Shown here one piece after another: positions 1 through 43,269 of a stretch of DNA of 44,773 nucleotides (positions within the stretch are counted from its first letter, which is position 1; every line of letters begins with the position of its first letter). Origin of the DNA: a virus; IMG/VR virus record IMGVR_UViG_3300031576_000105, positions 1-44,773 of that record, one strand, 5' to 3'. A program made the translations under genes and the position numbers. Below the pieces are notes generated by a model that had not been told where the DNA came from, did not search any database, and saw only the letters and a list, made by a program, of their open reading frames with translations.

Positions 1-102
1 ATATAAGGGGCTAGTCCGCTTGTCAGCAGACGAGCTACAAGGCTCATAGCAGAGAGCATTTTCAAAAGAGATACATAGAGGCACTATGCACGAATAAACA
101 CT
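1..102 (+). promoter_or_regulatory. terS-terL intergenic leader with hairpin
   Basis: About 110 bases (including 44637-44646 across the junction) separate the small and large terminase genes. They hold a hairpin with CTTGTC at 19-24, loop AGCA, and GACGAG at 29-34. No promoter or Shine-Dalgarno sequence is evident. Sites between or inside terminase genes often hold packaging signals, so a pac or cos role is possible but not shown. Confidence 0.4.
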
Positions 103-127: not shown

Positions 128-1713
128 CTAGGGTGATAGCAACATACCCCCCCCACTCTGTCAAGGGGCTGGGTGAAAGGGATGCGGGCGAGGAACGTCC
201 GCAGATAATAGAAAATTTAAACTCAATTCCTATTACAACACATAAGGAGGAGAATGTCAATTCGTCTGAAAGACTCAAGGGAATAGAAGCAAAGAAGGAA
301 TTAGCTAAAAGGGAATTAGCTCGTAGACATATTATTCCTTTTATAAAGTTTAGATTTACTTCTTATAGAGATAATTGGCATCATAGAATCTTAGCAGATG
401 CTTTGGAAAGAGTAGAAGCTGGGTCGCTAAAAAGATTGATGGTCTTTATGCCTCCCCGACACGGAAAGAGTGAATTGGTAAGTGTAAACTTCCCTGCCTA
501 CTGTATGGGAAAAAATAAGGATAGAAACATAATGACTGCATCTTATGCAGCAGCTTTGGCGACAGATTTCGGACGAAAAGTTCGAAATATAATGGACTTA
601 CAAGAGTATCAGTTACTTTTTGATACTAGATTAGCTGAAGATGCTCAGGCTAAAGGAAACTGGTCTACCAACGGAAGAGGTGAATATAATGCCTTGGGTG
701 TGGGGGGAGCTGCTACTGGTAAGGGTGCTGATATTTTAATAATAGATGACCCTGTAAAAAACCGAGAGGAAGCTGATTCTGAGATTGTGGGAGAATCTAC
801 TTGGGATTGGTATAAATCTACTGCTCGAACCCGTCTGTCCCCTTCAGGAGCGATTATATTGGTTATGACCCGATGGAAAGATAACGACCTGGCTGGGAGA
901 ATTTTAGAGGAAGGAATGGACAAATGGGAGATAATATCCCTCCCTGCTATAGCCGAACAAGATGAGGAATTTCGAAAGGAAGGCGAAGCTCTTTGGGCTG
1001 ACCACTTCACGTTAGAAAATCTTGAAGCTACAAAACAAGATATTGGAAGCTATGAATTTGCTGCACAATATCAACAAAATCCTGTTAATCGTGAAACACA
1101 GATTTTCAAGGAGGAAATGTTTAAAAAGATAACTTTAGAGGAAGTTCAGAAGAAAATAACGAACTGTTTTGTAACCATAGATACTCAAGGTAAACAAAAA
1201 GCTACTAAACAATCAGATTACACTGGTATTACAATAAACTGGGTAGACGACAAAAATGTATGGTATCTAAAGTCCTACCACAAGAGAATTGGTGAAACTG
1301 AGCTTTTTGACCTTATTTTTGAACTCCATACTGCCTATAAACCCCAAGCCATAGGTATAGAAAAGACTATGTTCACTGAGGCTATCCAACCATTCCTTAC
1401 GATTGAAATGGCTCGTAGAAACGTATTTCCGAACGTAGTTGAGTTAAAACACGGAGGCACAGCAAAGGAAATTCGTATTAAAAGCCTTGTTCCACGCTAT
1501 GAAAGAGGTCATATTTACCACATTGAAGGTATGTGTAAGGATTTAGAGGGTGAATTACTCCGTTTTCCTGCTTCTAGGTTTGACGATACAATGGATTCGG
1601 CTGCTTATCAGTCCCAGATAGCAGAAGCACCTAATACTGACTTTGATTACGATGAATTTGAGGCTGAAGAACTGATGCCAACTGAAAAAATCTTCGCTGA
1701 CATTGGCATTTAA
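103..1713 (+). CDS. terL: Terminase large subunit (TerL)
   Basis: This is the DNA-packaging motor: an N-terminal ATPase that drives DNA into the prohead and a C-terminal RNase H-fold nuclease that cuts the concatemer. The 536-residue length is normal for the family. Visible motifs are Walker A PPRHGKS near residues 117-123, a Walker B strand ILIIDD near 211-216, and the nuclease start with an acidic VTIDTQG strand near residue 355. The small subunit lies immediately upstream once the genome is circularised, and the portal follows directly, the usual packaging order. The first 75 residues are polar and variable, so a later start is possible, but no SD sequence helps to choose. Family assignment is secure; the packaging type (cos or pac) is not visible. 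Confidence 0.93.
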   Translation: MAKKIAGKTRVIATYPPHSVKGLGERDAGEERPQIIENLNSIPITTHKEENVNSSERLKGIEAKKELAKRELARRHIIPFIKFRFTSYRDNWHHRILADALERVEAGSLKRLMVFMPPRHGKSELVSVNFPAYCMGKNKDRNIMTASYAAALATDFGRKVRNIMDLQEYQLLFDTRLAEDAQAKGNWSTNGRGEYNALGVGGAATGKGADILIIDDPVKNREEADSEIVGESTWDWYKSTARTRLSPSGAIILVMTRWKDNDLAGRILEEGMDKWEIISLPAIAEQDEEFRKEGEALWADHFTLENLEATKQDIGSYEFAAQYQQNPVNRETQIFKEEMFKKITLEEVQKKITNCFVTIDTQGKQKATKQSDYTGITINWVDDKNVWYLKSYHKRIGETELFDLIFELHTAYKPQAIGIEKTMFTEAIQPFLTIEMARRNVFPNVVELKHGGTAKEIRIKSLVPRYERGHIYHIEGMCKDLEGELLRFPASRFDDTMDSAAYQSQIAEAPNTDFDYDEFEAEELMPTEKIFADIGI

Positions 1714-32809: not shown

Positions 32810-32818
32810 AATATTCTT

Positions 32819-32932
32819 AGGGGGACGAAGTGCAAAGTTTTATGTAGTTTCTTCCAGGTATATGGCTATCCAGCAACCGTTCTACAAACGTTAGGACTCA
32901 CCGCACTTCTATGTAAGGTACTTCACCCCCCT
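32819..32932 (-). ncRNA. Long-stem structured RNA (leader or small RNA)
   Basis: The ends form a long helix: AGGGGG then GAAGU on one arm pair with ACUUC and CCCCCU on the other, with a two-base mismatch between. An alternative GAAGTGC/GCACTTC pairing exists inside. A TATAAT at 32939-32944 (minus sense) would start the RNA exactly at the first base of the helix. No match to SRP, 6S or tRNA was convincing. It could be an independent RNA or the leader of the gene at 32390. Confidence 0.55.
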
Positions 32933-32983
32933 AAATATATTATAAAACAGATTTCCGCACTTTTGACATATGTATGCCCCCAT
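32909..32983 (-). CDS. Tiny leaderless CxxC peptide
   Basis: 24 residues beginning MGAYICQKCGN, with a single CxxC. The ATG lies exactly 6 nt after a TATAAT of a DnaA-box promoter, the same spacing as confirmed genes, so it is plausibly translated. Its 3' part overlaps the structured RNA at 32819-32932, so it might act as a regulatory leader peptide. Confidence 0.45.
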   Translation of the reverse strand: MGAYICQKCGNLFYNIFRGVKYLT

Positions 32984-33034: not shown

Positions 33035-33040
33035 CTTTTG

Positions 33041-33114
33041 TGCCTCAGAGGAGAGTCGAACTCCTAAAATTTAGTTTCTAAAACTAACACGGTTACCAAT
33101 TACGTCACCGAGGC
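33041..33114 (-). tRNA. tRNA-Leu(UAG), short variable arm
   Basis: Acceptor GCCTCGG pairs with CTGAGGC. Anticodon loop TTTAGAA, T-arm AGGAG-TTCGACT-CTCCT. The variable region is only 5 nt, although bacterial leucine tRNAs normally have a long arm. Reads CUN if U34 superwobbles. Confidence 0.85.
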
Positions 33115-33148
33115 GTATTTCAGTTATCCTGTTTTCCCAGATAACTGA

Positions 33149-33231
33149 TGGCGGAAAGTCAAGGAATCGAACCTTGTTGGGTTTTACCCCACTGTTTTCA
33201 AGACAGTTAGTCACCATTGACCATACAATCC
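33149..33231 (-). tRNA. tRNA-Ser(UGA), long variable arm, CCA encoded
   Basis: Loop CTTGAAA gives UGA, with T-arm CAAGG-TTCGATT-CCTTG and a 14-nt variable arm with GGG/CCC pairing. Acceptor GGATTGT with ACTTTCC has two central U-U mismatches. Discriminator G and the CCA end are encoded. Confidence 0.82.
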
Positions 33232-33235
33232 ATTG

Positions 33236-33318
33236 CGGTAGGACTAGGATTTGCACCCAGAAGACTTTTACATCCGACAGTTTAGCGAACTGCTCGTTTA
33301 CTGTTCACGCACCCTACC
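33236..33318 (-). tRNA. tRNA-Ser(GCU), long variable arm
   Basis: Acceptor GGTAGGG/TCCTACC, discriminator G, 16-nt variable arm. Anticodon loop TCGCTAA has C instead of U at position 33, and the T-loop TGCAAAT lacks the TTC start. Reads AGY. Confidence 0.8.
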
Positions 33319-33403
33319 TGGTGCTGATTGTGAGAGTCGCACTCACGGCATCCGAAGACAACTGCTTTACAGGCAGTCTCCGCCCTCTACGGAATATGTC
33401 AGC
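33319..33403 (-). tRNA. tRNA-Tyr(GUA), long variable arm, CCA encoded
   Basis: Loop CTGTAAA gives GUA, with the long variable arm typical of bacterial Tyr and T-arm GTGAG-TGCGACT-CTCAC. Acceptor GCTGACA/AATCAGC is mismatched in its two inner pairs. Discriminator A followed by encoded CCA. Confidence 0.82.
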
Positions 33404-33407
33404 ATTG

Positions 33408-33478
33408 TGAATCCTGAAAGACTTGAACTTTCATAGACCGAGTAAGAGTCGGCTATTCTGCCATTGAATTAAGGATTC
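33408..33478 (-). tRNA. tRNA-Lys(CUU)
   Basis: Perfect acceptor GAATCCT/AGGATTC, loop CTCTTAC, T-arm GAAAG-TTCAAGT-CTTTC. The anticodon stem is 4 bp plus one mismatch. Reads AAG. Confidence 0.85.
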
Positions 33479-33479
33479 G

Positions 33480-33550
33480 TACGAGATAAGGGAATCGAAC
33501 CCCTGCCCGTGAGATGTAAGCTCACCGTTCTACCATTATACTAATCTCGT
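33480..33550 (-). tRNA. tRNA-Val(UAC)
   Basis: Acceptor ACGAGAT/ATCTCGT, loop CTTACAT, stem GTGAG/CTCAC, T-loop TTCGATT. The only Val tRNA, so U34 would have to read all GUN codons. Confidence 0.9.
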
Positions 33551-33554
33551 TTAT

Positions 33555-33573
33555 TCGTATCAAAATGATACGA
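33555..33573. promoter_or_regulatory. Intercistronic hairpin in tRNA array
   Basis: CGTATC and GATACG pair around AAAAT. Lies between Val and Arg tRNAs and could mark a processing point. Confidence 0.5.
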
Positions 33574-33576
33574 TTG

Positions 33577-33648
33577 TGAAAAGTATAGGATTCGAACCTA
33601 TATCTGAGACGTTAGAACCGTCCCGCACTTCCATTGTGCTAACTTTCC
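33577..33648 (-). tRNA. tRNA-Arg(UCU)
   Basis: Acceptor GGAAAGT/ACTTTTC, loop GTTCTAA, T-arm ATAGG-TTCGAAT-CCTAT. The anticodon stem has one mismatch. Reads AGA and probably AGG. Confidence 0.85.
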
Positions 33649-33649
33649 G

Positions 33650-33720
33650 TAGCCGATATGGGTAATGCTCCCATTTTCTTTGCTTGAAGGGCAAACGTCC
33701 TACTTTTAGACGAATCAGCC
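33650..33720 (-). tRNA. tRNA-Glu(UUC)
   Basis: Acceptor GGCTGAT/ATCGGCT with wobble pairs, D-arm of the Glu type (TTCGTCTA). Loop CCTTCAA has C at position 33. T-loop AGCATTA is non-canonical. Confidence 0.82.
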
Positions 33721-33721
33721 G

Positions 33722-33792
33722 TAAGGTTAGTGGGTACTGCCCCCACATCTCTTGCTTGAGAAGCAAGCGAACTACTACTATTCGATAACCTC
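33722..33792 (-). tRNA. tRNA-Glu(CUC)
   Basis: Acceptor GAGGTTA/TAACCTT, loop TTCTCAA, perfect CTTGC/GCAAG stem, T-arm GTGGG-GGCAGTA-CCCAC with a non-canonical loop. Reads GAG. Confidence 0.83.
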
Positions 33793-33793
33793 G

Positions 33794-33864
33794 TCCATAA
33801 TGATGGAATCGAACCACCGTAACTAAAGTATCAGTTTAGTATTCTTCCATTAAATTAATTATGG
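33794..33864 (-). tRNA. tRNA-Ile(GAU)
   Basis: Perfect acceptor CCATAAT/ATTATGG, loop CTGATAC, stem CTAAA/TTTAG, T-loop TTCGATT. Reads AUY. Confidence 0.9.
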
Positions 33865-33865
33865 G

Positions 33866-33936
33866 TAGGAATGGAGGGTAATGCTCCCCCGTCCGAGAGG
33901 TATAAGCTCTCCGTTCTGCTTTTAAACTACATTCCT
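33866..33936 (-). tRNA. tRNA-Ile(UAU)
   Basis: Acceptor AGGAATG/CATTCCT, loop CTTATAC, stem GAGAG/CTCTC, T-loop AGCATTA (non-canonical). UAU reads AUA directly, avoiding the lysidine modification needed by CAU-type Ile tRNAs. Confidence 0.85.
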
Positions 33937-33940
33937 AATG

Positions 33941-34014
33941 TCGGTATAGCTGGAGTTGAACCAGCACTTTATGATTTTTGAAATCATTGTGTCTACCAGT
34001 TGCACCATATACCG
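33941..34014 (-). tRNA. tRNA-Leu(CAA), short variable arm
   Basis: Perfect acceptor CGGTATA/TATACCG, loop TTCAAAA, T-arm GCTGG-TTCAACT-CCAGC. The D-arm carries GGTAGACAC as in leucine tRNAs, but the variable region is only 5 nt. Reads UUG. Confidence 0.85.
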
Positions 34015-34018
34015 ATTG

Positions 34019-34091
34019 TCCGCCTAGCTAGATTCGAACTAGCACTTGAGTGGTTTTAAATCACTTGCCTCTACCGTTGGGCTAAAGGCGG
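34019..34091 (-). tRNA. tRNA-Leu(UAA), short variable arm
   Basis: Acceptor CCGCCTT/TAGGCGG with one mismatch, loop TTTAAAA, T-arm GCTAG-TTCGAAT-CTAGC, variable region of 5 nt. Its 5' end lies 2 nt from the RNase P RNA 3' end. Reads UUR. Confidence 0.85.
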
Positions 34092-34093
34092 AT

Positions 34094-34337
34094 ATTGTGT
34101 CTATAAGCGGGATTCTGTTTTAGACGAAATTTACCTTGATTTAATGTCGCCATTAAATTCTTTGCAGTTCTCCAGTTTCCTGGCACGACTTTGCACTCTC
34201 GTAAATATTTTGCCGTTTCACCCGAACTAAATCGGTTCGTCACTGTTCGCAATTCGCATCTTACGATGGACAGGTGTTACCTGCTACGAAATTGAGTGTC
34301 CCGACTTTCCTCTCCGTGAAGTATCGTCCGACACAAT
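34094..34337 (-). ncRNA. rnpB: RNase P RNA (phage-encoded, compact type A-like)
   Basis: A 244-nt catalytic RNA that removes 5' leaders from tRNA precursors together with a protein subunit, here presumably the host's. Conserved regions are clear in order: GAGAGGAAAGTCGGGAC (CR I), AGCAGGTAACACCTG, GGGTGAAACGGC (CR II-III), AAGGTAAAT (the L15 GGU that binds tRNA CCA) and ACAGAATCCCGCTTATAG (CR V). P1 is a perfect 8-bp ATTGTGTC/GACACAAT; P2 is GACGA/TCGTC. In P4, CGGGA pairs with TCCCG where E. coli has CCGGG/CCCGG, a compensatory change that argues for selection. It is about 130 nt shorter than the E. coli RNA. It sits 1-2 nt from the flanking tRNAs, so RNase P cleavage of tRNA-Leu would release its own 3' end. 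Confidence 0.94.
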
Positions 34338-34338
34338 G

Positions 34339-34412
34339 TGCTATGACGTGGAGTTGAACCACAACCTTCTGTTTTTCAGACAGATGTGCAGATACCGCTA
34401 CACCATCAGAGC
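34339..34412 (-). tRNA. tRNA-Phe(GAA)
   Basis: Acceptor GCTCTGA/TCATAGC with one mismatch, loop CTGAAAA, stem TCTGT/ACAGA, T-loop TTCAACT. Lies 1 nt upstream (in transcription) of the RNase P RNA. Confidence 0.87.
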
Positions 34413-34416
34413 ATTG

Positions 34417-34488
34417 AGCTATATAGTGGAATCGAACCACTCCGTGTCCGCTTTGCAGGCGGATGCCTTACCATTTGGCTAATATAGC
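34417..34488 (-). tRNA. tRNA-Cys(GCA)
   Basis: Perfect acceptor GCTATAT/ATATAGC, loop CTGCAAA, stem TCCGC/GCGGA, T-loop TTCGATT. The discriminator is U, as required for CysRS. Confidence 0.92.
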
Positions 34489-34537
34489 AATCAGGGTTTT
34501 TTTCACGATTGTAAAAACACGCCTGCAAAAAACGCTG

Positions 34538-34608
34538 AGCCTCATCTGTGAATCGAACACAGGTAGATAGTTTACAAAACTATTGTTCTGCCACTGAACT
34601 AACAAGGC
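34538..34608 (-). tRNA. tRNA-Thr(UGU)
   Basis: Acceptor GCCTTGT/ATGAGGC, loop TTTGTAA, stem ATAGT/ACTAT, T-loop TTCGATT. The only Thr tRNA of the set. About 50 nt without features separate it from the Cys gene. Confidence 0.88.
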
Positions 34609-34609
34609 G

Positions 34610-34679
34610 TTGCGGGTACGAGTTTCGCACTCATCTATCAGGCTTATGAGACCCAATTCATCACTAGATGAAACCCACA
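34610..34679 (-). tRNA. tRNA-Met(CAU), atypical
   Basis: Acceptor TGTGGGT/ACCCGCA, loop CTCATAA (canonical Met). The anticodon stem is made of weak wobble pairs, the D-arm is very short (CATC/GATG) with no GG, and the T-loop is TGCGAAA. The first pair is U-A, unlike typical initiator tRNA. It is the only CAU gene found. Confidence 0.72.
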
Positions 34680-34681
34680 GG

Positions 34682-34752
34682 TGAATCTGAATGGAATCGA
34701 ACCATTGTGGACTGTTTAAAAGACAGCTATAATACCATTATATTACAGATTC
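34682..34752 (-). tRNA. tRNA-Lys(UUU)
   Basis: Perfect acceptor GAATCTG/CAGATTC, loop CTTTTAA, T-arm AATGG-TTCGATT-CCATT. One mismatch in the anticodon stem. Confidence 0.87.
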
Positions 34753-34778
34753 AAAACATAAATTGTCAAAGAAACTTG

Positions 34779-34851
34779 GGTGTTATGAGAGATTCGAACT
34801 CTCGATAATTCCTTCACAGGGAACTGTGTTACCAACTACACCAATATCACC
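34779..34851 (-). tRNA. tRNA-His(GUG)
   Basis: Acceptor GTGATAT/ATAACAC with one mismatch, loop CTGTGAA, T-loop TTCGAAT. An extra G at position -1 faces C73, the His identity pair. Confidence 0.9.
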
Positions 34852-34867
34852 ATATTAATTTCTTTCT

Positions 34868-34940
34868 ATACGCCATAGACATTCTTTCGAACGAAGGTGG
34901 TTGGCGAGACCATTCCATTAACTACTTCATCCCGTAACAG
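34868..34940 (-). pseudogene. Degenerate tRNA-like element (CGC in loop)
   Basis: GGT-CTCGCCA-ACC resembles an anticodon arm (CGC, Ala-type) and TTCGAAA a T-loop, but the T stem is only 3 bp and no acceptor stem longer than 4 bp forms. Either a decayed tRNA gene or a tRNA with an unusual fold. Edges are approximate. Confidence 0.35.
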
Positions 34941-34953
34941 GACTTTTCATCTG

Positions 34954-35024
34954 CGACTCTACCGAGAATTGCACTCGGACTCCTTCCGTGACAGGGAAGC
35001 GTGATTCTATTTCACCATAAAGTC
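34954..35024 (-). tRNA. tRNA-Asp(GUC)
   Basis: Acceptor GACTTTA/TAGAGTC, loop CTGTCAC, stem CTTCC/GGAAG, discriminator G as expected for Asp. T-loop TGCAATT is non-canonical. Confidence 0.88.
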
Positions 35025-35028
35025 ATTG

Positions 35029-35099
35029 CTCATCGGCTTGGAATCGAACCAAGATTTAATGATTAACAGTCAATCGTAATACCATTATACCACTGATGA
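35029..35099 (-). tRNA. tRNA-Asn(GUU)
   Basis: Acceptor TCATCAG/CCGATGA (6 of 7 pairs), loop CTGTTAA, discriminator G as expected for Asn, T-arm CTTGG-TTCGATT-CCAAG. One mismatch in the anticodon stem. Confidence 0.86.
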
Positions 35100-35104
35100 G
35101 TATT

Positions 35105-35122
35105 CTGGGGTATACACCCCAG
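35105..35122. promoter_or_regulatory. Strong intercistronic hairpin
   Basis: CTGGGGT and ACCCCAG pair around a 4-nt loop. No T-run on the transcribed strand, so a processing or stabilising element is more likely than a terminator. Confidence 0.55.
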
Positions 35123-35124
35123 TG

Positions 35125-35196
35125 TGAGCCGAGAAGGAGTCGAACCTTCATTTAATAGTTTCGAAGACTATTGTACTTCCTTTATACTATCAGCCC
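35125..35196 (-). tRNA. tRNA-Arg(UCG)
   Basis: Acceptor GGGCTGA/TCGGCTC, loop CTTCGAA, stem ATAGT/ACTAT, T-loop TTCGACT. A UCG anticodon (not the usual A/inosine-34 ACG) would read CGN by superwobble. Confidence 0.88.
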
Positions 35197-35197
35197 G

Positions 35198-35269
35198 TTC
35201 GGGAAATTGGATTCGAACCGCATATTTCTTGGTTCAGAGCCAAGCGTACTACCATTATACGATTCCCGA
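35198..35269 (-). tRNA. tRNA-Gln(CUG), weak T stem
   Basis: Perfect acceptor TCGGGAA/TTCCCGA, loop CTCTGAA, stem CTTGG/CCAAG. The T stem keeps only two pairs around TTCGAAT, so it may be partly decayed. Confidence 0.78.
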
Positions 35270-35292
35270 ATATTATCGCTATTACTAGCTTG

Positions 35293-35363
35293 TTGCGAAA
35301 TTTGGACTCGAACCAAAATTAAATGTTTCAAAGACATTCTTCCTACCCTTAGAAGACTTCGCA
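35293..35363 (-). tRNA. tRNA-Gln(UUG)
   Basis: Acceptor TGCGAAG/TTTCGCA, loop CTTTGAA, stem AATGT/ACATT, T-arm TTTGG-TTCGAGT-CCAAA. Confidence 0.88.
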
Positions 35364-35379
35364 ATATTTAAAAGAACAG

Positions 35380-35450
35380 TCAAGATAGGGGGATTCGAAC
35401 CCTCGCAACAAAGTCCCAAACTTTGCGTGCTACCACTACACTATATCCTG
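35380..35450 (-). tRNA. tRNA-Pro(UGG)
   Basis: Acceptor CAGGATA/TATCTTG, loop TTTGGGA, stem CAAAG/CTTTG, T-loop TTCGAAT. The only Pro tRNA. A short T-arm-like fragment at 35451-35478 next to it may be a remnant of another tRNA. Confidence 0.88.
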
Positions 35451-35478
35451 TGATGGGCGGAATTGCATCCGACCCTTG

Positions 35479-35550
35479 TGCAACGCTTGGGACTTGAACC
35501 CAACTTCTCTGCTTGGAAGGCAGACGTGTCGCCATCTACACTTGCGATGC
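35479..35550 (-). tRNA. tRNA-Gly(UCC)
   Basis: Acceptor GCATCGC/GCGTTGC (one mismatch), loop CTTCCAA, stem TCTGC/GCAGA, T-arm TTGGG-TTCAAGT-CCCAA. The only Gly tRNA, so UCC must read GGN. Confidence 0.87.
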
Positions 35551-35556
35551 TTTCAT

Positions 35557-35645
35557 CCGATGGTCTACAGTTTTGCTAGACAGTTCCCCGTCGGAAACTA
35601 TCCGTGAATCACTTGACCGTGAGGGGAGTTTCCTCCCACCATCGG
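35557..35645 (-). ncRNA. Five-helix tRNA-like RNA with UCA in a loop
   Basis: 89 nt that fold as a class II cloverleaf: closing stem CCGATGG/CCATCGG, GGGAG-GAAA-CTCCC (D-arm position), TCAC-GGTCAA-GTGA (anticodon position), CGGA-TAGTT-TCCG (variable arm) and GTCTA/TAGAC (T-arm position). Compared with real tRNAs, the anticodon loop has 6 nt and the T-loop is not of TTC type. The short D loop and long variable arm recall tRNA-Sec, but U33 is missing. Could also be an unrelated structured RNA. Confidence 0.5.
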
Positions 35646-35649
35646 AATG

Positions 35650-35718
35650 CAAGCTCATACAGAATCGAACTGTATCATAGGCGTTTGGAGTGCCTTTTGC
35701 TACCATAGCATTGAACTT
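35650..35718 (-). tRNA. tRNA-Trp(CCA)
   Basis: Perfect acceptor AAGTTCA/TGAGCTT, loop CTCCAAA, discriminator G as expected for Trp, T-arm TACAG-TTCGATT-CTGTA. Very short D-arm (GCTA-TGG-TAGC). Its 5' end overlaps the HNH stop codon by 2 nt. Confidence 0.85.
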
Positions 35719-36058
35719 ATTTATACCCTAATTGTTTTGCAGTTCTAACTCGATGACAATTAGCACAAACAACATCACATTTTTTAATTTCTTCCTGCAA
35801 TTTCTTCCAACTTCCCCTCATAATCCTTGAATTTATGCTCCCGAGTTTTTGTTTCTGGTCTCGGTGGTCAAAATCCATAACATAAGAAGGATATTTAATA
35901 TTACAATCATTACAAGGAACATCTTTGATAGATTTAAGGTATACCCTCATCCTATCTTTTTTTATTTCATTATTACGATAATATTGCTCCCTATTATTTT
36001 CATAATGTTTTCTACGAGCAATCCTGGCTCTTTCATCATCTTTGTTTTTGTATGCCAT
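35717..36058 (-). CDS. Free-standing HNH endonuclease inside the tRNA array
   Basis: 113 residues: a long basic helical N-terminus (RIARRKHYENNREQYYRNN), CNDC near residue 49, the catalytic MDFDHRDQK near 66, and VVCANCHRVRTAKQ at the C-terminus. It lies between tRNA-Trp and tRNA-Ala, and has its own extended -10 promoter with ATG exactly 6 nt downstream. tRNA genes are common targets of homing endonucleases, so it may have inserted here and could help spread the array. Confidence 0.87.
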   Translation of the reverse strand: MAYKNKDDERARIARRKHYENNREQYYRNNEIKKDRMRVYLKSIKDVPCNDCNIKYPSYVMDFDHRDQKQKLGSINSRIMRGSWKKLQEEIKKCDVVCANCHRVRTAKQLGYK

Positions 36059-36661: not shown

Positions 36662-36667
36662 ATATAT

Positions 36668-36696
36668 ATTATACCACAGATGTAAAATAAAGACAA
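36668..36696 (-). promoter_or_regulatory. Promoter, extended -10, no DnaA box
   Basis: TTGTCT at 36691-36696 (minus sense), a 17-nt spacer and extended TGGTATAAT with hexamer at 36668-36673. Reads towards the tRNA operon. Confidence 0.72.
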
Positions 36697-36733
36697 CTTT
36701 GACAAAGATTTTGATTTGTATTGTAACTTTATT

Positions 36734-38347: not shown

Positions 38348-38863
38348 ATGAGAAATCTTACCACACCAGATATTGAAGAGTTCCTCTTAGAATCAAATGC
38401 CATTGAAGGAGTTTTTGATGATGACTCTTATGAACAAGCCTTGATTGCTTGGAATTGGCTTTCAGAGCAAAGAGAAATGAGTGCTCACGTTATGTTAAAA
38501 ACACACAAGATTCTTATGTTGCATCAAAACTTATATCCTAATGAAAAGGGTTATTTTAGGAATGTTCCTGTGTGGATTGGTGGGAGAGAAGGTATAGATA
38601 GTAGCAAAATAGCACCCGCTATTAAACACCTTTGTATGAATATCAACGATATAATAGATAATGGTAAAAAAGAAAGTGAGATTTTCCTCAATAAAATAAC
38701 AAAAGAACACCACGTTGAGTATGAGAAGATACATCCTTTTGTGGATGGTAATGGTAGAACAGGTAGAATGTTTATGAATTGGGAGAGGCTAAAAGTCGGG
38801 CTTCCTCTGTTGATTATTCACGCTGGGGATGAACAGCAAGAATATTATAAATGGTTTATATGA
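38348..38863 (+). CDS. fic: Fic family protein with N-terminal inhibitory motif
   Basis: 171 residues. The full catalytic motif HPFVDGNGRTGR (129-140) is present, with His129 as the expected base. SNAIEG (16-21) fits the inhibitory S/TxxxE(G/N) motif of class II Fic proteins. Fic enzymes modify proteins, mostly by AMPylation, sometimes by phosphorylation of EF-Tu. Self-inhibition would control activity without a separate antitoxin. Neighbouring TGA/ATG overlap supports the reading frame. The target is unknown; interference with host translation is one inference given the tRNA set. Confidence 0.9.
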   Translation: MRNLTTPDIEEFLLESNAIEGVFDDDSYEQALIAWNWLSEQREMSAHVMLKTHKILMLHQNLYPNEKGYFRNVPVWIGGREGIDSSKIAPAIKHLCMNINDIIDNGKKESEIFLNKITKEHHVEYEKIHPFVDGNGRTGRMFMNWERLKVGLPLLIIHAGDEQQEYYKWFI

Positions 38864-40930: not shown

Positions 40931-42196
40931 ATGGAAGAAAAAATATACTGTGAGAAATGTAAAAAAGAAATTAAGTCGGATGATGTGTATGAGAATAATG
41001 ACGGGTTGAAGTATTGCGGTGATTGTTATGATGAGTTGTTTTATGAGTGTCATGATTGTAATGAGGAAACTAGCACAGACGAACGGAATATATGCTATGA
41101 TGATTATAGTGTGTGCGACACTTGCAGAGATGATTATAGTTATTGCGAGAATTGCGGTTGTTATGTAAATAGTGATGATTATGCTGGGGATGGTTTGTGT
41201 AATAGTTGCCACGATAATGATGATAATGAGGATAGTGATAGTGGGGGCGAAAGACATTATGACAAAGGTAATACATATTGTAGTGAAAAGGGTCGGGCGT
41301 ATGCGGTAGAGATTGAAACTAACTATGACGAAACAGACGACAGACGGCATTTATTTAATTTGCCGTATGAGGTCGGGATAACTGATGACGGGTCGCTGGG
41401 GTCGCACGGGGTAGAATTGCAGACACCGAAATTAAGTGGGGTCAAGGGTGATGAGTTGCTTAAAAAAATATGTAAGCACTTAAACGATAATAACTTTTCT
41501 GTTGATAGACAATGCGGATTACATATACATATAGACACAGCAGATTTTTTTGAGGTGGACGATAGATACATAAGAGAAAATCATTATTCTAGTGATACAC
41601 CAGAAAAAGAGTTGTTGCTATATCAAAAGCGAGACAGGGAGCAGAAAATAGTCAATCGTATAAAAACACTGATGCTATTCTATATTGCTTTTGAGCCAGT
41701 TATTTATTCTTTTATGCCTATGGCACGCAGAACGAACCGATACTGCTATCCGCTATCAGAGTTTTATCACGAAAGCGAGATAACGAACGCAGACAGCTTG
41801 GAGGATTTAGAGACGATTTGGTATAGAGAGCAGAGCAAAGAAAAAAAAGCCGATAGGAAAAAAGAAAAGTATGATGAGACAAGATATGCTGGTTATAATT
41901 TTCATTGTATGTTGTCCGCTAAACATATTGAGAGCAGACATCATAGCGGAACGCTGGACTATAACAAAATGAAAAACTGGACTGAGTTAAACATCACCAT
42001 ATTAGATAATGTTATAGGTGAAAGAGTAAAAATGTCGGAATTAAAAATAATTAAACACGCTATTGATATATCACAAAAAACTAAACTTTTCTTTGATATG
42101 ATTGGAGTAAATAAAAAACTTCAGGCATATTTTCTAGCAAGGCAGAAAAAGTTTTGTGCTGGGTCAATCGCTAAACAAAACAAATGTGCGGAATAA
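40931..42196 (+). CDS. Zinc-finger amidoligase (COOH-NH2 ligase)
   Basis: 421 residues. Residues 7-93 hold repeated CxxC pairs resembling a LIM/RING-like zinc region. The second part is an amidoligase of the glutamine-synthetase-like fold: AVEIET (125-130), DDGSLG...GVELQTP (152-166), CGLHIHID (195-202), and a late HIESRHHSGTLDY. These enzymes join a carboxyl to an amine with ATP, making amide or isopeptide bonds. The start of the next gene, a glutamine amidotransferase, overlaps its stop, so glutamine-derived ammonia is the likely amine. Substrate unknown; comparative genomics has predicted such pairs to make modified peptides or cell-surface molecules. Confidence 0.84.
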   Translation: MEEKIYCEKCKKEIKSDDVYENNDGLKYCGDCYDELFYECHDCNEETSTDERNICYDDYSVCDTCRDDYSYCENCGCYVNSDDYAGDGLCNSCHDNDDNEDSDSGGERHYDKGNTYCSEKGRAYAVEIETNYDETDDRRHLFNLPYEVGITDDGSLGSHGVELQTPKLSGVKGDELLKKICKHLNDNNFSVDRQCGLHIHIDTADFFEVDDRYIRENHYSSDTPEKELLLYQKRDREQKIVNRIKTLMLFYIAFEPVIYSFMPMARRTNRYCYPLSEFYHESEITNADSLEDLETIWYREQSKEKKADRKKEKYDETRYAGYNFHCMLSAKHIESRHHSGTLDYNKMKNWTELNITILDNVIGERVKMSELKIIKHAIDISQKTKLFFDMIGVNKKLQAYFLARQKKFCAGSIAKQNKCAE

Positions 42197-43269
42197 TACA
42201 TTGTAAAAGAAAAGACGGGAAACTTGCGAACAAGCCGATATTAAAAAGGTTTGAGAAGCAAAAGAGCAGGGGCACAGAAGGCTTTGGTTTTATTGAGATA
42301 AATGACGGCATTGTCGGGGCGGAGATTAGAACACGGACAGAAAAAGAAATAAAAGAAAAGCTGGCACAATCCACAGCAACGGAGATAATGTTTCATCACC
42401 GAACGCCAACATCCACGCCTAACTTTATTGAAGCAACGCATCCGATAAAAGTTTCACATAAAAGTTTGATATATGACTACTATGTTATGCACAATGGGAT
42501 TATCAGTAATGATGATAAATTGCGAGATAAACACTTGGATAATGGTTTTATCTACACCACAGAGATTGTGAAGAAATGGATAACAAGCGGTAAGACATAT
42601 ATTGATAAGATGTGGAATGACAGCGAAGCACTAGCGATTGACTTTTGCCTAGCGATTGAGAAAGGCACAGAGATAACAGCAGAGGGCAGTATTGCTATGG
42701 TTGCCTTGCAGTTTTCTAAAAAGAACAGAAAGGCAGTCGCACTATTCTTTTGTAGGAACGCTGGCAATCCGTTGAAAGTTGAGGACGGAAAAGATTTTTT
42801 CTGTATATCCAGCGAGTCGGGAAAAGAAATACCGAAAGACACACTATACAGATTAGATTATGTAAAAGGCGAATTGCGATATGAGAAAAAGACAATCGGA
42901 AAGTTTATCTATGATTATGAGACGGGCTACGGATATAATGGTTATGCTGGTAGTTATAATTATATGGATTATGAAAATGATACTCCATATACACGCTGGG
43001 ACAAAAAAGGAAAGCCGAACGGGGAGGATGACTTTGATATGGAACTATGGGAGGAACGGCAGTTATTAGAAGATGATATGAGAGTGGCGGAAATGAACGG
43101 GGACTATGACGCTATGACGGATTTAGCAGTCAAGATTGAAGAGATTGATTTAGAGATAGCGGGGATTGATAGTGATGATATGGCGGAGGCAGAGGCAATG
43201 GAGGGTGATATTGAAAAGCTAGGGGTCGGGCATCATATAAACAAGAAAGCACAAAAACTGGGCTTTTAG
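42184..43269 (+). CDS. Class II glutamine amidotransferase
   Basis: 361 residues beginning MCGII, so Cys2 becomes the N-terminal nucleophile once Met is removed, as in GlmS or PurF-type Ntn hydrolases. Supporting motifs are FHHRTPTSTP (near 70-79) and MHNGIISND (near 101-109), plus a Gly/Glu-rich C-terminal region. It would release ammonia from glutamine for the overlapping amidoligase. The C-terminal 150 residues, with many Tyr, Asp and Glu, are not assigned. Start overlap of 13 nt indicates coupled translation. Confidence 0.87.
   Translation: MCGIIHCKRKDGKLANKPILKRFEKQKSRGTEGFGFIEINDGIVGAEIRTRTEKEIKEKLAQSTATEIMFHHRTPTSTPNFIEATHPIKVSHKSLIYDYYVMHNGIISNDDKLRDKHLDNGFIYTTEIVKKWITSGKTYIDKMWNDSEALAIDFCLAIEKGTEITAEGSIAMVALQFSKKNRKAVALFFCRNAGNPLKVEDGKDFFCISSESGKEIPKDTLYRLDYVKGELRYEKKTIGKFIYDYETGYGYNGYAGSYNYMDYENDTPYTRWDKKGKPNGEDDFDMELWEERQLLEDDMRVAEMNGDYDAMTDLAVKIEEIDLEIAGIDSDDMAEAEAMEGDIEKLGVGHHINKKAQKLGF

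Follow-up and report, generated by a model that had tools for sequence, protein, structure and literature searches.

The minus strand of the window (the whole stretch of DNA analysed here, a 44,773-bp IMG/VR virus record) carries an RNase P RNA gene inside a tRNA array, and the RNA is confirmed as a bacterial RNase P RNA of reduced class A type (Table 1). A preliminary description of this DNA had proposed a phage-encoded RNase P RNA within a tRNA array; the proposal is well supported by the covariance match, the fold, covariation, phage hallmark genes, and recurrence in other phages. In a cmscan of positions 33900-34500, an Infernal/Rfam check that the description had itself suggested, the model of bacterial RNase P class A (RF00010) gave a significant match on the minus strand at 34088-34339, with 84.5 bits and E 3.9e-26 over the full model (1-367). 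The search of the whole record for RF00010 gave E 6.9e-28. The gene ends are set by the perfect 8-bp P1 and coincide exactly with those proposed earlier. The RNA was not listed by the default Rfam scan because its 84.5 bits lie under the gathering score of RF00010 (100 bits), which is a curator's cut-off and no biological trait; genuine RNase P RNAs of Patescibacteria (CPR) likewise scored under model cut-offs (PMC8172020). Minimum-free-energy folding by itself was mildly unusual (z -2.2), the pseudoknot being beyond the reach of such folding. Among 50,697 deposited phages, no match to the RNA was found, even at E 10; other RNase P RNA queries against these phages retrieved mainly bacterial-looking records, plus unannotated gut contigs.

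Table 1. Features of the RNase P RNA locus in the window; RNA numbering counts from the 5' end of the RNase P RNA.
Feature	Window position	RNA position	Strand	Evidence
Phage RNase P RNA, reduced class A type, 244 nt	34094-34337		-	RF00010 match and helix pairing
P1 5' strand, AUUGUGUC	34330-34337	1-8	-	8/8 pairs with 34094-34101
P1 3' strand, GACACAAU	34094-34101	237-244	-	pairing with P1 5' strand
P2, 5 bp		10-14/211-215	-	standard pairs
P4 5' strand, AGUCGGGA, bulged U34 (catalytic core, CRI)	34299-34306	32-39	-	7 pairs with 34106-34112
P4 3' strand, UCCCGCU (CRV)	34106-34112	226-232	-	7/7 pairs, P4 pseudoknot
P5		40-44/140-144	-	standard pairs
P7		49-53/135-139	-	standard pairs
P8 hairpin, CAGG-UAACA-CCUG	34271-34283	55-58/64-67	-	model match and pairing
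P9 hairpin, GUAA (GNRA) loop	34257-34268	70-73/78-81	-	pairing
P11		86-89/125-128	-	standard pairs
P12 hairpin, between J11/12 ACAGUGACGAACC and J12/11 GGGUGAAA	34222-34235	103-106/113-116	-	model match and pairing
P15 region, reduced: short stem and CCAG-GAAA-CUGG hairpin, GGA for GGU, no P16/P17	34166-34190		-	sequence reading
P18 hairpin, 8 bp, GCGA (GNRA) loop	34139-34158	180-187/192-199	-	pairing
tRNA-Phe(GAA), upstream of RNA 5' end, 1-nt spacer, discriminator base 34339	34338-34412		-	
tRNA-Leu(UAA), downstream of RNA 3' end, 2-nt spacer	34018-34091		-	
tRNA array around the RNase P RNA, at least 24 tRNAs, almost none with encoded CCA	33040-35718		-	
Candidate promoter, TTGTCT-17 nt-TG.TATAATAT, upstream of array	36666-36698		-	consensus match

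Standard pairs make up P1, P2, P4, P5, P7, P8, P9, P11, P12, and P18 throughout, and both the perfect P1 and the P2 helix of the preliminary description are present. The catalytic core reads GAGGAAAGUC...ACAGAA...GCUUA, with all seven P4 pairs, conserved J3/4 and J2/4, and the bulged U. In the specificity domain, P7, P8, P9, P11, and P12 pair, and the conserved single-stranded segments ACAGUGACGAACC and GGGUGAAA are found, as are GAGGAAAGUC and ACAGAA in the core. In known RNase P, J11/12 and J12/11 touch the T arm of the tRNA; the J11/12-P12 region motif is common to the window RNA and seven viral contigs. The compensatory change reported for P4 proved to be two compensated pair changes relative to the usual AGUCCGGG/CCCGGCUU. 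P13/P14 and P16/P17 are missing from the window RNA, and P3 is minimal.

A GGU in loop L15 had also been described, and this did not hold. The P5-to-P18 interval reads CAAAGUCGUGCCAGGAAACUGGAGAACUGCAAAG, with GGA at the site and no GGU; the sequence of the P15 region is CAAAGUC-GUGCCAGGAAACUGGAG-AACUGCAAAG, and the sole GGUAAA nearby is J18/2. The L15 GGU is the motif that pairs with the CCA of tRNA. As it is gone and P13/P14/P16/P17 are lost, the window RNA may bind its substrate weakly or in another way. Not all RNase P RNAs have the motif: it is often lost in cyanobacteria and is lost in most CPR (PMC8172020). A P15 without GGU agrees with the array tRNAs, about 19 of 21 of which have no encoded CCA. 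A simple rule tying the L15 GGU to encoded CCA was rejected, because two viral loci break it in opposite ways: L043 has lost most of P15, yet its tRNAs encode CCA, and L166 is the reverse case.

The record is a tailed phage. It carries genes for the terminase large subunit (TerL), an SU10-type portal, the major capsid protein, and a tail fibre, together with lysis genes and a DNA polymerase exonuclease gene, and phage genes lie on both sides of the same-strand tRNA array that holds the RNase P RNA. Its terminase relatives among deposited phages are distant (about 40% at best); one 6.5-kb contig has terminase, portal, and capsid in common with the window at 65-73%. An Amidoligase_2 gene at 40931-43269 (+) stands beside a weakly glutamine-amidotransferase-like gene, and a Fic-family gene was found at 38348-38863.

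Bacteroidota are favoured as hosts because of the P4 variant UCCCGC, 91 of whose 118 loci are in Bacteroidota, and the lack of Shine-Dalgarno-like motifs (0 of the 39 ORFs of the window), which fits that phylum. Doubt arises from the TG-TATAAT-like promoter motifs used by the phage and from the CPR-like reduction of the RNA, and a CPR host is possible. These motifs, the variation of P4 within a viral cluster, and the CPR-like missing helices led us to reject the P4 variant as a host marker. The motif TGNTATAATAT is enriched in the window (23 sites with at most one mismatch vs. 7.7 expected) and precedes several genes; such sites are likely extended -10 promoters.

Similar RNAs were sought in IMG/VR records chosen by RNase P core motifs in two scans, and the counts cover these motif-selected records: RF00010 matched in 19 of 33 and in 43 of 50. 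The viral matches reach 334 bits, on contigs as long as 463 kb; in three of the 43 RF00010-positive records, the match is weak and looks short (E 1e-3 to 1e-8). Four further tRNA-array records came from a third IMG/VR scan, with the J11/12-P12 region motif. Some motif-picked records, mainly short isolate ones, may include host DNA. Among the deposited phages, MW495066.1 ('Microcystis phage MaAM05', L296) has a complete RNase P RNA, but its neighbours there are fabI, engB, and mtgA, and the DNA looks bacterial.

Several viral copies depart from the usual architecture. Loci L045-L053 form a sub-group of 200-270 nt without recognisable P8/P9 (RF00010 38-72 bits) and have a CUG.UUAA stretch after P5 in common; their specificity domain seems to have been rebuilt. 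Record G030 has, at L031:700-1160 (-), a 5' RNase P RNA segment, GAGGAAAGTCGGGACATCGCTGCTGAAGGAAGGAAAA, that continues without a gap into tRNA-Lys(UUU); this RNA is probably truncated or split. Strongly diverged RNase P cores with P4 GGGT/CCCC lie in or beside phage tRNA arrays at L103:5392-5631 and L126:1102-1261; the L103 record gave no RF00010 match despite its core.

The association with tRNAs was compared between 41 distinct viral copies, near-copies having been removed by hand, and 93 bacterial rnpB loci, mostly from Bacteroidota. A tRNA lies within 10 nt of 17 of the 41 viral copies and within 100 nt of 24, vs. 1 of 93 bacterial loci within 100 nt (Fisher p 1.6e-14); the other 17 viral copies stand apart from tRNAs, with none within 100 nt. 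The scored tRNA neighbours of viral copies were on the same strand every time. This association is not built in, because record selection relied on RNase P motifs, not on tRNAs. RNA-bearing records have a median of 32 tRNAs (at least 12 in 46/50), whereas the median is 0 for the 21 motif-matched records without an RF00010 match, two of which are exceptions. At least one of these exceptions, G065, carries an RNase P core that the model misses. The groups are unlike in size as well, and the figures are not rates for all phages.

Bacterial DNA misassembled into a virus, or mistaken for one, would also place an RNase P RNA in a viral record, and there are rnpB-bearing database 'phages' of bacterial appearance, such as MW495066 with its adjoining fabI and engB. 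The window RNA, however, lies inside a single tRNA array, all on one strand and flanked on either side by phage genes, a setting foreign to bacterial rnpB (the 1/93 above), and a ribosomal protein L14 gene was found in 0 of 34 large viral records bearing RNase P RNA. We therefore consider a bacterial origin of this stretch very improbable.

The preliminary description had also called for a covariance comparison with related phages. With 14 viral homologues, the structure being drawn from the window, itself one row, and relatedness inflating the counts, the window structure pairs in 80% of cells, and 47 of 61 pairs changed on both sides. The covariation score was 0.526, compared to 0.173 +/- 0.014 for shuffled alignments and 0.07-0.15 with slid partners (maximum 0.147); the low score of the slid control argues that base pairing as such is maintained. 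In this set, 100% of the counted cells of P4 and P7 are paired, and P4 is paired in 42 of 43 distinct viral copies, where it takes at least six alternative forms (GGGA/UCCC, CGGG/CCCG, GGGG/CCCC, CGGA/UCCG, GGCG/CGCC, and CCCG/CGGG). These compensatory changes across phages (0.526 vs. 0.173) indicate that the fold is under selection in phages. The RNA recurs in dozens of other phages. Its nearest relative, 70% identical over 219 nt, begins directly after the CCA of a tRNA-Gly and ends a few bases ahead of an apparent further tRNA, on a contig with tape-measure and lysis genes.

In a quick tree with weak inner branches, used for clustering only, the viral copies fall into a few virus-only clusters (5 label changes vs. 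24 with shuffled labels). The window RNA groups with other viral copies, apart from Bacteroidota, with weak support in this tree, which contains no CPR sequences. The same data bear on the possibility that the RNA is a decaying, functionless relic of a host rnpB. Its reduced size, missing helices, and score under the gathering cut-off would suit a relic, and the 5' half running into a tRNA at L031 indicates that decay or splitting can occur in another phage record. A relic would not be expected to keep a perfect P1 and an intact P4-P18, to show strong compensatory covariation among viral copies, or to cluster with these away from cellular sequences, weak as the branches are; moreover, like reductions exist in Patescibacteria having no other RNase P RNA (PMC8172020). 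Decay is therefore an unlikely explanation, slightly more so than the decoy discussed below. A wider proposition seems to us evenly poised: that many uncultured phages have virus-specific RNase P RNA lineages, passed with tRNA arrays between morphotypes and with the specificity domain partly rebuilt, which together with host RnpA form a tRNA-processing enzyme that is tuned to the phage and matures from the very array that it serves.

For the window itself, we consider it probable that the phage supplies its own catalytic RNA of RNase P, which together with host RnpA processes the phage's own array, and that maturation of the tRNAs on either side yields the RNA ends. The distance of 1-2 nt to tRNA-Phe and tRNA-Leu(UAA) was as first described, and it is because the RNA is a unit of the array with such short spacers that its ends are assigned to tRNA processing. 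The analysis demonstrates what the RNA is, how it folds, where it lies, that it recurs, and that covariation preserves its pairing; from this we infer transcription as one precursor, catalysis, the host protein, and the processing order. The array would be transcribed as a single precursor, and the folded RNA would join host RnpA and cut the 5' ends of the phage tRNAs. Maturation of the tRNA-Phe 3' end would leave the RNA with its own 5' end, and an RNase P cut, by the host or the phage enzyme, at the start of tRNA-Leu would generate its 3' end. That cleavage of the next tRNA frees the 3' end, as suggested previously, is plausible given the 2-nt spacer and the same layout in many relatives. 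The protein subunit of the holoenzyme, RnpA (PF00825), is not encoded by the record and was found in none of 48 viral records, the window record included, so the host would have to supply the protein; the earlier suggestion of a host protein fits this absence.

Since hosts possess RNase P, the need of the phage for its own is not obvious. The RNase P-like fold could instead bind or divert host RnpA, or replace the host catalytic RNA, and thereby shift host tRNA and RNA processing without serving the phage array. Phages without an encoded RnpA would be in line with such a decoy or takeover RNA, as would the loss of the substrate-binding L15 GGU here and of most of P15 in the nearest relative. 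We nevertheless hold it unlikely, because conservation is highest in the catalytic P4 helix and in the junctions that bind the T arm, which a pure protein decoy would not require, and because the tight tie to tRNA arrays and tRNA load suits tRNA processing.

Other elements occur in and around the array. An HNH endonuclease gene at 35717-36058 (-) adjoins tRNA-Trp, and in several other phages homologues of it (about 39-48% identity) occur close to the tRNA arrays and the RNase P RNA; the endonuclease is a possible mover of array pieces. Between tRNA-Trp and tRNA-Gly, at 35551-35650 (-), there is a very stable RNA-like element with a 9-bp closing stem (-43.8 kcal/mol) and no Rfam match at gathering score. 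Downstream of the array, a structured element at 32815-32965 (-) has a long stem, UUAGGGGGGUGAAGU / ACUUCGUCCCCCUAA.

Few ribozymes are conserved across almost the whole of cellular life; RNase P RNA is one of them, and its gene is regarded as a cellular one. A viral branch that recurs would widen the phage takeover of translation from tRNAs to the tRNA-making enzyme, would provide structure-function studies with naturally occurring minimal RNase P RNAs and P4 variants, and would suggest that tRNA-rich phages stay independent of host processing capacity. The RNA as such belongs, in reduced form, to a known family; the novelty lies in the viral lineages and in their location within tRNA arrays. 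Among 5.39 million open-access papers, a scope outside which most subscription papers and all preprints lie, none was found that describes an RNase P RNA in a phage. Megaphages are reported to stand out in that their Rfam matches were only tRNAs and a tmRNA (PMC8172020).

Compared with class A rnpB (RF00010), the window RNA has the same order of conserved regions, the helices P1, P2, P4, P5, P7-P9, P11, P12, and P18, an A-rich J3/4, the bulged U of P4, J11/12, J12/11, and GNRA loops. It differs in its length (244 nt vs. about 350-400), in lacking P13/P14 and P16/P17, in its short P3 and L15 GGA for GGU, and in being phage-encoded, inside a tRNA array, and without rnpA. The RPM1 RNA of yeast mitochondria is AU-rich and poorly conserved, and its protein partner is of nuclear origin. 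RPM1 lies between tRNA-fMet and tRNA-Pro on one transcript (PMC3797045), much as the window RNA lies among tRNAs, and by analogy appears to be the closest known organisation; both belong to a small genome and take the protein subunit from elsewhere (for the window RNA, presumably), RPM1 being organellar and the window RNA viral. Theta ribozymes beside phage tRNAs are likewise phage-encoded ribozymes at tRNA genes with a proposed role in aiding tRNA maturation, but they are small, self-cleaving, HDV-like RNAs at tRNA 3' ends and not RNase P, and the tRNA 5' ends were left to RNase P in their description (PMC10879173). In the RNA itself, the reduced RNase P RNAs of Patescibacteria are similar, with P13, P14, P16, and P17 missing, scores under cut-offs, and the CCA-binding GGU lost in about two thirds of them (PMC8172020). 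This likeness is drawn from the published description and not from sequence; the CPR RNAs are cellular and essential, whereas the viral ones lie in tRNA arrays.
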